Shown here one piece after another: positions 7,463-51,888 of a DNA stretch of 64,000 nucleotides; the first letter of the stretch is position 1; every line of letters begins with the position of its first letter. Source of the DNA: Bacillota bacterium (GTDB lineage: Bacteria > Bacillota_I > Bacilli_A > RF39 > UBA660); the NCBI GenBank assembly GCA_015059285.1, contig SVAS01000001.1, positions 194,217-258,216 of the forward strand, read 5' to 3'. The notes beneath the pieces are model-generated. The model was not told the DNA's origin. It was given only the letters and a program-made list of their open reading frames with translations, and did no database searches. A program made the translations under genes and the position numbers.

Positions 7463-7506
7463 TATGTTATTTATGTTGTACTTCTATTCTAAAGAGTAAA
7501 AGAATG

Positions 7507-7512
7507 TATAAT
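7507..7512 (+). promoter_or_regulatory. -10 element of pilin-like gene 1
   Basis: TATAAT preceded by TG, 26 bp before the ATG. No convincing -35. This leader is different from the conserved leaders of the other two pilin-like genes. Confidence 0.4.
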
Positions 7513-7537
7513 AATACTGTAGAATAGGAGTGAGTTT

Positions 7538-8548
7538 ATGAAGAGAAAAGGATTTACCTTAATTGAATTGTTAGCAGTAATAGTAATACTGGCAATAATA
7601 GCCCTAATCGCAGTACCAGTAATAATGAATATCATAACAAGTGCAAGAAAGAGTGCATTTGAAGATACTGCATATGGATTAATTAGTGCTGGGGAAATGT
7701 ATTATGCAAGTTCACTATTAGAAAATGGAATGACAAGTGATGTAGAGTTCACAGTTGAAGATGGAGAGTTTGTAGGAGAAAACAAATTAGAAGTTACAGG
7801 AGCACTTCCAACAAGCGGAAAAGTAAAAGTTACCCGTGATGGAAAAACAGCAATTGCAATAAGTAATGGAACATATTGTGTAACAAAAGGATATGATGAA
7901 AGTAAGATAAAAACTGACAAAGATGATGGAAATTGTAAATTACCAGAAGAACAAGCAGAAAACACATTAAAAGATATAGCAACCACAACAACAGAAGTAA
8001 CAAGTGTAGCAACATGTGCAACAGATGGAAGTGTGTGTGCACCAGGAACACCATTTGCGATAGAAGTGGCTCCAGGAGAAGTTAAAAACTTCTTTGTAGT
8101 AAGTGATTCCGATAATAAAGTAACATTAATCATGGATAGAAATATAGGGGAAACAGTGGCGTGGAATATATCTGGAGATAATGCGAATGGTCCAATTACA
8201 GCGATAAATTATTTGGAAGAACAAACAAGTGGATGGACAAATATCCTAGCGTTTAATTATACATATGTAGATGAAAATGACTCTAAAGTATATGAAAATA
8301 TTACAAAAACTGGAATAAGAGCAAGAATGATAACAAAATCAGAAATAAATTCAATAATATCAAATGAATGGGCATATGGAAATATGGATACTGGTTCTGC
8401 TCCTTGGGGATATTGGCTAAGTTGTGCAGATGTTGATAACTATAATGATGCTTGGGTTGTTACATATGCAGGTGCTTTTCATCCTAGTGGTGATGGAATT
8501 CTAAGTACTAGCTTTGGAGTACGCCCAGTAATAGAACTTTTAAAATAA
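7538..8548 (+). CDS. Type IV pilin-like protein 1 with large C-terminal domain
   Basis: 336 aa. The N-terminus KRKG/FTLIE is a class III prepilin site (Gly -1, Phe +1, Glu +5) followed by the hydrophobic helix. Residues 30-130 form a stalk with a Cys pair (YCVTK and GNC). A domain from about 175 to the end contains LIMDRNIGETVAW, GPITAINYLE and WTNI, and closes with YWLS...AW...FGVRPVIELLK, a pattern like DUF6273 or C-type-lectin-like modules. The stretch between YWLS (residue 292) and GVRPV differs strongly from the paralogs at 22955 and 50821, while the first 110 residues are nearly identical. GGAGTGAG precedes the ATG. No pilus assembly gene is nearby. Confidence 0.8.
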   Translation: MKRKGFTLIELLAVIVILAIIALIAVPVIMNIITSARKSAFEDTAYGLISAGEMYYASSLLENGMTSDVEFTVEDGEFVGENKLEVTGALPTSGKVKVTRDGKTAIAISNGTYCVTKGYDESKIKTDKDDGNCKLPEEQAENTLKDIATTTTEVTSVATCATDGSVCAPGTPFAIEVAPGEVKNFFVVSDSDNKVTLIMDRNIGETVAWNISGDNANGPITAINYLEEQTSGWTNILAFNYTYVDENDSKVYENITKTGIRARMITKSEINSIISNEWAYGNMDTGSAPWGYWLSCADVDNYNDAWVVTYAGAFHPSGDGILSTSFGVRPVIELLK

Positions 8549-22754: not shown

Positions 22755-22954
22755 TTTATAATTTATGTTATAGAAACCACTTTAAATAATATTTTATATA
22801 TAATAAAACTGTCAATGATAGCAAAATAAAACATTATGTTATTTACACTAAAATATTATGTTATAAAACTAATCTAGAACAATATGTTATACAAAGTAAA
22901 TAAAAGTATAAAAGAATAAAAAATTGTTCAAGATAAGAAAGAAGGAGTGGAAAT
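22755..22954 (+). repeat. Conserved pilin leader, copy 1
   Basis: About 200 bp that match 50619-50820 at most positions; the shared blocks include TTATGTTATAGAAACCACTT, TCTAGAACAATATGTTATAC and a closing TTGTTCAAGATAAGAAAG. Boxes ATGTTATA occur at 22765, 22858 and 22884, with ATGTTATT at 22836. A possible promoter is TTTACA (22842-22847), 16 bp, TAAAAC (22864-22869), weaker than in copy 2. Conservation outside coding sequence points to shared regulation or to recent duplication with the gene. Confidence 0.8.
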
Positions 22955-23995
22955 ATGAAACAAAACAAAAGAGGATTTACCTTAATTGAACTGTTAGCAG
23001 TAATAGTAATACTAGCAATAATAGCACTAATCGCAGTACCAGTAATAATGAATATCATAACAAGTGCAAGAAAGAGTGCATTTGAAGATACTGCATATGG
23101 ATTAATAAGTGCAGGGGAAATGTATTATGCTCAGGCTCTATTAGAAAATGGAATGACTAGTGATGTAGAATTCACAATTGAAGATGGAGAATTTGTAGGA
23201 GAAAACAAATTAGATGTTAAAGGGGCATTGCCAAAAAGTGGATCAATGGTAGTAACAAAAGATGGTAAAGTAGGTGTAGTGATAAGTAATGGCACTATGT
23301 GTGCTAAAAAAAGAGTAGATGACACAAAAGTAAAATTAGAAGAAACATTAGAATATTGTACATTAGAACCAACATTAAAAGAACTTTCAAAAACAAATGA
23401 TTTTGCTACCAGTGTAGATGAATGTGTAACAAGTGGAACATGTGCAACAGGAACAAAATTTGCAATAGAAGTCGCACCAAATAATATTCAAAACTTCTAT
23501 GTAGTAAGTGATACTGATAATAAAGTAACACTAATCATGGATAGAAATATTGGTGAAACAGTAGCGTGGATAAGTAAAGATGATTATATAAAAGCTGGAG
23601 GAACTGATGCTGAATGGAGCATAAATTTTGAAGAACAAGGATATTATGGTAATAATTCTAAGGGTCCTTTAACAGCAATAAATTATTTAGAAAGTCAAAC
23701 GGCAGTATGGACAAATATTCCTGCAAAAAATTACACATTAATAGATGATGGTGGTGGGGACAAATATTCAATTTCAAGAACTAATGCTAGAACAAGATTA
23801 ATAACGTATACAGAAGCAAATAATTTAATTTATTCAACCAGTTGGTTATTTGAAAATGGCGATCATTGGACAAGTGGAGCTTATAAAACTAATTTTTTTA
23901 TTGCTTATGATGTTACAACAGGGTTTATTAATACAAATTATGTTAATACTGAACATAACTCTGGTGTGCGTCCAGTAATAGAAATTTCAAAATAA
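22955..23995 (+). CDS. Type IV pilin-like protein 2 with large C-terminal domain
   Basis: 346 aa. KQNKRG/FTLIE is a class III prepilin site with Glu +5, followed by the same helix and stalk as the genes at 7538 and 50821; nucleotide identity over the first 270 bp is very high. The C-terminal domain shares LIMDRNIGETVAW, GPLTAINYLE, VWTNIPAKNYTL and the end SGVRPVIEISK. It has an insert after IGETVAW (KDDYIKAGGTDAEW) also found in the third gene. Its segment before GVRPV (AYDVTTGFINTNYVNTEHN) lacks the YWLS start of the other two. AAGGAG lies 7 nt before the ATG. Transcribed alone. Confidence 0.8.
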   Translation: MKQNKRGFTLIELLAVIVILAIIALIAVPVIMNIITSARKSAFEDTAYGLISAGEMYYAQALLENGMTSDVEFTIEDGEFVGENKLDVKGALPKSGSMVVTKDGKVGVVISNGTMCAKKRVDDTKVKLEETLEYCTLEPTLKELSKTNDFATSVDECVTSGTCATGTKFAIEVAPNNIQNFYVVSDTDNKVTLIMDRNIGETVAWISKDDYIKAGGTDAEWSINFEEQGYYGNNSKGPLTAINYLESQTAVWTNIPAKNYTLIDDGGGDKYSISRTNARTRLITYTEANNLIYSTSWLFENGDHWTSGAYKTNFFIAYDVTTGFINTNYVNTEHNSGVRPVIEISK

Positions 23996-50585: not shown

Positions 50586-50587
50586 TG

Positions 50588-50618
50588 AAGCAAACCTATA
50601 ATGGTTTGTTTTTTTTTG
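50588..50618 (+). terminator. Terminator of rpsP-khpA
   Basis: CAAACC-TATAAT-GGTTTG followed by T9. Confidence 0.85.
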
Positions 50619-50820
50619 TTTGTGATTTATGTTATAGAAACCACTTTAAATAAACCTTTATGTATAATAAAAGTGTCAATGATAGTAAAGTAAAACAATA
50701 TATTATTGACACCAAAATATTATGTTATAAAATTAATCTAGAACAATATGTTATACAAAGTAAATAAAAGTATAAAAGAATAAAACTTGTTCAAGATAAG
50801 AAAGAGGGAGTGGAAAGAAA
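50619..50820 (+). repeat. Conserved pilin leader, copy 2
   Basis: Second copy of the sequence at 22755-22954. ATGTTATA boxes lie at 50629, 50722 and 50748; the last two keep the 26-bp spacing of copy 1. A good promoter is present: TTGACA (50706-50711), 16 bp, TAAAAT (50728-50733), with one box overlapping the -10. TTGACA is part of ATTGACAC, which is the complement of GTGTCAAT at 50674-50681; copy 1 lacks this symmetry. Confidence 0.8.
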
Positions 50821-51888
50821 ATGAAGAGAAAAGGATTTACCTTAATTGAACTATTAGCAGTAATCGTAATACTAGCAATTATAGCATTAATCGCAGTACC
50901 GGTAATTATGAATATAATAAGTAGTGCAAGAAAAAGTGCATTTGAAGATACTGCGTATGGACTAATTGATGCAGGAGAAATGTATTATGCAAGTTCATTA
51001 TTAGAAAATGGAATGGCTAGTGATGTAGAGTTCACAATTGAAGATGGAAAGTTTGTAGGAGAAAACAAACTAGAAGTTAAGGGGGCACTTCCAACAAATG
51101 GAAAAATAATAGTAACAAAAGATGGACGTGTTGCAATAGCAGTAAATAATGGAGCACATTGCGTAACAAAAGCAACAAGCGAAAGTAGAGTAACAACAGT
51201 TAAATATGAAGGAAGCTGTGAATATAAAAAAGCAGCAAATCCAATAATCACATCAACAGCAACATGTATCACAAATGCAAACGAAACATGTAGTGAAGAT
51301 GCAATAAAAGCAGGAATTGCAGTGAATGTTAAAGTAAACGATAAAGAAGAAGCGAAGACATTCTATGTAGTAAAAGACGATGCTACAACTAACACATTAA
51401 CATTAATCATGGATAGAAATATTGGAGAAACAGTAGCTTGGGTAACAAAAGATGACTATATTTCAGCAGGTGGTACAGAAGCTGATTATGGTACATACGG
51501 CAGTAATAATAAAGGCCCAATCACAGCCTTAAATTACTTAGAAAGTAAAACAAGTAGTTGGACAAACATACCAGCAAAAACATACACATTAACAGATAGT
51601 ATATACGGAACAATCACAAGACAAAATGCCAGAGCAAGAATGTTAACAGAAGCCGAAACATTCAGTTTAGATTGCGTAGAATATGACGTTGGATGTCCAG
51701 TATGGTTGTATGGGAATTTAGAGTCTAGTAATCCACCATATGCTTATTGGCTAAGCTCTGCTAGCGTGGACTATTCTAGATATGCTTGGGGTGTGGACTA
51801 CGATGGTACCTTGAGCGACGTCAGTGTAGACGCTGATAACGACTCTGGCGTTCGCCCAGTAATAGAAATACCCAAAACTATAATATAA
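50821..51888 (+). CDS. Type IV pilin-like protein 3 with large, GC-rich variable-looking C-terminus
   Basis: 355 aa. KRKG/FTLIE prepilin site and the stalk are nearly the same as in the genes at 7538 and 22955. Two cysteine pairs (HCVTK/GSCEY and ATCITNANETC) lie between stalk and head. The head contains LIMDRNIGETVAW, GPITALNYLE and WTNIPAKTYTL, and ends YWLSSA ... AWGVDYDG ... SGVRPVIEI. The 3' stretch 51745-51858 is about 52% G+C by hand count, with codons such as GAC, AGC, GTC, TAC and CGC that the neighbours avoid. GAGGGAG precedes the ATG. Probably a surface pilin with a binding tip. Confidence 0.8.
   Translation: MKRKGFTLIELLAVIVILAIIALIAVPVIMNIISSARKSAFEDTAYGLIDAGEMYYASSLLENGMASDVEFTIEDGKFVGENKLEVKGALPTNGKIIVTKDGRVAIAVNNGAHCVTKATSESRVTTVKYEGSCEYKKAANPIITSTATCITNANETCSEDAIKAGIAVNVKVNDKEEAKTFYVVKDDATTNTLTLIMDRNIGETVAWVTKDDYISAGGTEADYGTYGSNNKGPITALNYLESKTSSWTNIPAKTYTLTDSIYGTITRQNARARMLTEAETFSLDCVEYDVGCPVWLYGNLESSNPPYAYWLSSASVDYSRYAWGVDYDGTLSDVSVDADNDSGVRPVIEIPKTII
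51745..51885 (+). other. Variable-region-like 3' end of pilin-like gene 3
   Basis: Encodes residues 309-355, from YWLSSA to the stop. Asn/Asp/Ser/Tyr-type codons ending in C or T alternate with fixed AW, G and GVRPV positions, the look of an adenine-mutagenised variable region in C-type-lectin targets of diversity-generating retroelements. No template repeat or reverse transcriptase was found in the window. Confidence 0.4.

Follow-up and report, generated by a model that had tools for sequence, protein, structure and literature searches.

Mosaic pilin coding sequences made by gene conversion are known from the pilE/pilS system of Neisseria, in which a single locus is expressed and the silent copies lack promoters, while in Mycoplasma, with its small low-GC genome, the vlhA-type surface genes form large families of relatives behind similar leaders. 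The targets of diversity-generating retroelements (DGRs) have usually been described singly or a few together, and from their 3' ends. The pilin-like family described here, three members of which lie in a 64,000-nucleotide stretch of a Bacillota genome (the window), has in common with Neisseria the mosaics that arise by conversion between loci, but here nearly every copy is preceded by a promoter leader of its own, and new variation comes from a retroelement. It resembles the Mycoplasma families in its large size, its alike leaders and the small low-GC genome; these leaders, however, showed no repeat-length switch, and retroelement hypermutation and fixed promoter boxes are found instead.

The DGR of Treponema denticola, as described in excerpts of the source, likewise combines one reverse transcriptase and template with several dispersed surface-protein genes, two to seven per strain and some of them decayed in appearance, but many of those targets are lipoproteins, whereas the 38 variable-region genes found here have prepilin N-termini and common promoter leaders (PMC4891356). 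In Thiohalocapsa PB-PSB1 distant targets are also diversified in trans and show footprints of duplication and domain shuffling, although, according to the selected passages, nine DGR loci, 15 targets and 21 variable regions are involved and the targets are linked to conflict systems, not pilins (PMC10907252). The remote variable proteins of cyanobacteria are similar in being genome-wide paralogs with C-terminal variable regions; they differ in their varied N-terminal domains and mostly predicted cytosolic location, and the excerpted parts of that report describe no common promoter module (PMC7517822). No retroelement-diversified type IV pilin family of such size was found in the titles, abstracts and selected passages of the literature. 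The known kind of system is the DGR; what is new is that the pilin targets form so large a family, with common promoter leaders and an apparent split between acceptors and archive.

The repeated leader and its genomic copies

The sequence-only reading had described a non-coding stretch recurring before two pilin-like genes of the window. A search of the genome (1.04 Mb in five contigs, 95.6% complete) showed that the repeat of 22755-22954 and 50619-50820 is real over its whole length (91% identity, E = 2e-76). In the alignment the two stretches, here called leader A, are identical almost without interruption between ATTTATGTTATAG and the ribosome-binding site and diverge sharply upstream; the similarity sets in abruptly at ATTTATGTT and runs on into the genes. 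The features of the three pilin-like genes of the window and their leaders are:

7465..7537, + strand: leader B before pilin-like gene 1; 18 genomic copies
7471..7512, + strand: box-N26-TATAAT module of leader B, TTATGTTGTA...TATAAT
7538..8548, + strand: pilin-like gene 1, 336 aa
22755..22954, + strand: copy 1 of leader A, upstream of pilin-like gene 2; identity to copy 2, 91%
22763..22772, + strand: box 1 of copy 1, TTATGTTATA
22799..22804, + strand: TATAAT exactly 26 bp past box 1, putative -10 of promoter P1
22842..22869, + strand: putative promoter P2 of copy 1, TTTACA-16-TAAAAC (weak), overlapping box 2
22858..22865, + strand: box 2 of copy 1, ATGTTATA
22884..22891, + strand: box 3 of copy 1, ATGTTATA, 26 bp from box 2
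22944..22947, + strand: Shine-Dalgarno-like GGAG of copy 1, from the sequence
22955..23995, + strand: pilin-like gene 2, 346 aa, with N_methyl prepilin motif (Pfam PF07963, E 5e-9)
50619..50820, + strand: copy 2 of leader A, upstream of pilin-like gene 3
50627..50636, + strand: box 1 of copy 2, TTATGTTATA
50663..50668, + strand: TATAAT exactly 26 bp past box 1 of copy 2
50706..50733, + strand: putative promoter P2 of copy 2, TTGACA-16-TAAAAT (11/12), overlapping box 2
50722..50729, + strand: box 2 of copy 2, ATGTTATA
50748..50755, + strand: box 3 of copy 2, ATGTTATA, 26 bp from box 2
50821..51888, + strand: pilin-like gene 3, 355 aa

The ATGTTATA boxes stand where they had been described (22765, 22858 and 22884 in copy 1; 50629, 50722 and 50748 in copy 2), the last two of each leader keep the 26-bp spacing, and one overlaps the predicted -10. 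The difference in predicted promoter strength was also recovered, copy 2 having a strong promoter (TTGACA-16-TAAAAT, 11 of 12 positions) and copy 1 a weak one (TTTACA/TAAAAC) that falls below the scan threshold. The weak -35 of copy 1 is exceptional among the 18 leader A copies, 16 of which read TTGACA, one TCGACA and one TTTACA. Taken alone, ATGTTATA is no more frequent in the window than chance allows (17 occurrences, with 12.2 +/- 3.7 expected), and for this lack of enrichment the plain octamer was rejected as the signal.

A terminator-like hairpin usually precedes the promoter unit, its T-tract ending 0-14 nt ahead in 35 of 38 family members (50587-50612 is the example in the window), and these hairpins are different at each locus. 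No convincing hairpin of this type is seen at copy 1 of leader A (22755), where the leader and an RNase J-like gene are divergently oriented.

Leader A has 18 copies in the genome (81-100% identity), each directly before a prepilin-like gene starting GFTLIELLAVIVILAIIALIAVPVI. The shorter leader B likewise has 18 copies, only before pilin-like genes and including gene 1 of the window (7538), and leader C has two, before further pilin-like paralogs, one of which adjoins the retroelement. All 18 leader A and all 18 leader B copies thus precede pilin-like genes and none was found before an unrelated gene, in line with the proposed family-specific leader. That gene 1 has a leader of a different type also stands, although the two types turned out to have the module treated below in common. 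No DNA match to leader A was found in 59 relatives, the same-genus species included. The starts of contigs C2, C3, C4 and C5 all lie inside pilin-family genes; the repeats therefore probably break the assembly, and the copy numbers are lower bounds.

That leader A is a structured RNA regulator, a riboswitch or attenuator, is hardly credible. Its sequence does allow an invariant GAACAAT...ATTGTTC helix, but the covariation term for this helix is zero, Rfam gave no match up to E = 1, leader B is short, and what all leaders have in common is a spacing in DNA. We rejected this candidate on the Rfam and covariation results.

The family comprises roughly 40 dispersed genes, 38 of them with a recognisable DGR variable region. 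Their products begin as type IV prepilins, with a GF(T)xxxE cleavage motif ahead of a hydrophobic helix (PF07963, 5e-9 to 7e-8; TIGR02532 above cut-off), and a PDB profile matched MshA at 4e-8 over the N-terminus only. The C-terminal stretch is hypervariable and ends in GVRPVIE. Matches of the variable domain to DUF6273/Lcl_C were all sub-threshold, and an AlphaFold2 model of it from a four-sequence alignment reached pLDDT 55 and had no fold match. A phage-borne origin of the family was rejected, viral contigs giving only partial matches to the prepilin N-terminus, of at most ~120 residues.

The box and TATAAT at a fixed distance

Leaders A, B and C have in common TTATGTTRTA-N26-TATAAT. Exact sites of this module number 30 in the genome, 28 of them before the pilin-like family, while the reversed pattern used as a control gave three sites even with up to one mismatch. 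Within the window the box TTATGTTRTA occurs five times, always before one of the three pilin-like genes, and the complete module exactly three times, once per gene. The two remaining exact sites precede genes for a zinc-ribbon FxLYD protein and a sigma-K-like protein; the former site (L112:987-1028) lies 25 nt before a gene for 156 aa (L112:1053-1523), and the latter 43 nt before a gene for 651 aa with additional sigma-4 domains (L113:1263-3218). Some leader A copies have an altered box 1 or spacing, among them C2:16397, C3:437914 and C3:483773, and in those at C3:130782, C3:449078 and C4:27410 the spacing is 25 bp instead of 26 bp. In addition to the module, leader A carries TTGACA-16/17-TAAAAT, overlapped by the second box, with the third box 26 bp further on.

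In a species of the same genus we found 21 module sites, six of them exact, against four in the control, and several lie directly before its pilin-like genes; in 17 other genera the module was at background level. The spacers that separate box from TATAAT in the two species are unrelated in sequence. As two short elements and their distance are kept and the spacer is not, the module looks like a promoter read by a protein, the comparison being of one assembled genome with one sister species. At L232, L233 and L235 of the sister species the module also stands before a second pilin-like class with a GFAISGILYSLL-type start (MKKMNNKGFAISGILYSLLIL).

The presence of one module in all three leader types suggests a single, putative trans-acting regulator. 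The sequence-only reading had proposed a dedicated regulator, and this part is strengthened by a fixed module that is nearly exclusive to the family and kept in the same-genus species; what did not hold is the site, the signal being the module and not ATGTTATA alone. From sequence comparison we consider it probable (roughly 0.7) that the repeat is the promoter and 5' UTR of a dispersed prepilin-like family whose C-terminal ends are DGR targets and which forms the regulon of a shared activator. The TATAAT of the module would serve as the -10 in a promoter that lacks a good -35. The box, ending 26 bp upstream of this candidate -10, would offer a place for an activator touching RNA polymerase, and a shared DNA-binding protein may sit there just upstream of the -35, at about -39 to -48, so that the whole family would be expressed as one regulon. 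In leader A the same protein, on boxes 2 and 3, could compete with or modulate the predicted second promoter (TTGACA/TAAAAT), which box 2 overlaps.

A simpler arrangement is one in which the box itself is an extended -10 (TGnTATAAT) and each leader holds tandem ordinary sigma-A promoters, no dedicated regulator being needed. The boxes of the sister species, TATGTTATAATTT, come near the extended -10 consensus, a resemblance (TGTTATAAT) that keeps tandem promoters in consideration, and box 2 of leader A does fall where a good TTGACA promoter has its -10 region. Most leader B boxes, however, read TTATGTTGTA, with G at a -10 position for which A is nearly essential. A fixed 26 bp between two independent -10 elements, maintained across species while the spacer changes, is likewise not expected of tandem promoters, and we regard this arrangement as rather unlikely.

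An alternative sigma factor might instead read the promoter directly, and the sigma-K-like protein is an example, given its extra sigma-4 domains and the exact module before its own gene. Yet 26 bp is far from a normal -35/-10 spacing, and no full-length relative was found in the same-genus species, which keeps the module, or in 57 other genomes of the family searched. Such direct reading is very improbable, and the sigma-K-like protein was rejected as a universal regulator because the sister species lacks a full-length relative.

Retroelement targets, fresh and drifted

Contig C1 has a complete DGR cassette consisting of a MutS-like protein (MutS_I, 6e-7), Avd, a reverse transcriptase, a template repeat and a neighbouring pilin target. 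The reverse transcriptase (400 aa) is the single RVT_1 protein of the genome (E 1e-18), and Avd is above cut-off for PF22296 bAvd (5e-13), while its NCBIfam Avd match (7e-16) reaches 58 bits against an equivalog cut-off of 80. The cassette, its tag example and the variable regions of the window are:

L062:5813-7741, - strand: DGR (MutS-like, Avd, reverse transcriptase), template repeat at about L062:5732-5625
L062:4060-4203, - strand: example of the 3' tag, on C1, also at the ends of six other target genes
8426..8527, + strand: drifted DGR variable region of gene 1; overall not significant, codon positions 1+2 P 7.6e-3
23876..23974, + strand: site of the drifted DGR variable region in gene 2; mismatches at A 14/37, at non-A 28/62, adenine bias not significant
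51757..51858, + strand: variable region (DGR) of gene 3, an older one; mismatches at 19/37 A and 15/65 non-A (P 3.7e-3), with P 1.2e-4 for codon positions 1+2

The non-coding template repeat beside the reverse transcriptase matches the C-terminal stretches of the family and differs from them at adenines. Four dispersed leader A genes agree with the template at all 63-65 non-adenine positions and differ from it at 21-26 of 33-37 adenines (P 4e-12 to 7e-16); such adenine-restricted mismatches in dispersed genes are the signature of a DGR acting in trans. Nine of the 38 genes have at most eight non-adenine mismatches to the template, and the adenine bias is significant in 13 of 38 (Bonferroni, neutral alignment scoring). 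The fresh copies were unaffected when the adenine-favouring alignment scoring was rechecked with neutral scoring. Template and targets have in common an IMH-like GGTGTGCGCCCAG; the hairpin of the 3' tag on the freshest targets lies farther from the variable region than in BPP-1 (PMC3240598).

The sister species has its template repeat within the reading frame of the reverse transcriptase, at the 3' end (L249:3465-4622, ANSNNSNNSFNVNYNGNVDGNSVFNNNNGGVRPD). Related retroelements occur in many uncultured gut Bacilli/Tenericutes assemblies, and some also target prepilin-type genes. At four such gut Bacilli loci (L183, L196, L202 and L221) long prepilin-type proteins with similar C-terminal domains are found nearby.

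A tag of ~100 nt follows the stop codon in seven genes, of which six have the lowest counts of non-adenine mismatches (0-2) and the seventh has five; it contains an 8-bp hairpin, and an exact 18-mer search also recovers most of the tagged genes. One fresh gene, C3:304809 (three mismatches), is without it, as are the remaining family genes, all three of the window among them, most of which have an altered IMH-like sequence. In the Bordetella phage system target recognition needs a hairpin downstream of the variable region, according to the excerpted source (PMC3240598), and by this analogy the tag is a plausible acceptor mark of the freshest targets. Adenine bias in the window is present in gene 3, weak in gene 1 and absent in gene 2, and the three genes look like older, drifted targets of the retroelement; by appearance they would be retired or rarely used.

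Exchange of coding bodies between loci

The leader A copies have a mean identity of 87%, while third-codon-position identity in the genes behind them is 73% over the first 35 codons and 50-62% after that. The nearest coding-sequence relative belongs to the same leader class in just 9 of 35 genes, against a shuffle mean of 15.3. Three genes with bodies 91-94% identical bear leaders A, B and C, respectively, and their identity jumps within the first tens of coding bases; another pair is 97% identical over the leader and the first 110 nt, ~55% at 120-440 and >90% after 450. These mismatches between leader and body indicate that bodies have been exchanged between loci that retained their own leaders. 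Four contig ends lie inside family genes, so single mosaics could be assembly artefacts; the pattern, however, spans the whole family. The shuffling of leaders against coding bodies implies gene conversion, as judged from the alignments, in which bodies would be swapped while leaders remain with their loci.

Gene conversion clearly acts on the family, and the likeness among leaders could be partly due to it. Carried further, the main reason for the conservation of the leader might be a role as homology arm, together with the conserved prepilin segment; conversion would then homogenise the leader and move the coding bodies, and special regulation would be unnecessary. The low agreement of leader class between nearest relatives (9 of 35) and the rise in identity from ~50% to >90% within the first tens of coding bases in pairs with different leaders both favour such a role. 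Exchange also takes place between genes with unrelated leaders, however, which shows that the leader is not the required arm, and conversion leaves unexplained that only the box and TATAAT at their fixed spacing are common to leaders A, B and C and to a second species. We therefore consider it unlikely as the main reason for the conservation, and retain the activator-regulon reading.

It is tempting to speculate further that these gut Bacilli have a pilin system resembling an immune repertoire, in which the retroelement rewrites a few 3'-tagged acceptors, conversion copies the bodies into ~30 archived loci, and one regulator acts through one module on the whole set; we offer this as a tentative proposal that is possible but less than likely. 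With ~40 dispersed targets behind common leaders in a 1-Mb genome, the family makes it possible to ask how the timing and number of hypermutable surface proteins are controlled and whether gene conversion stores variants, and so short and specific a module lends itself to a direct test of promoter function in a laboratory host.
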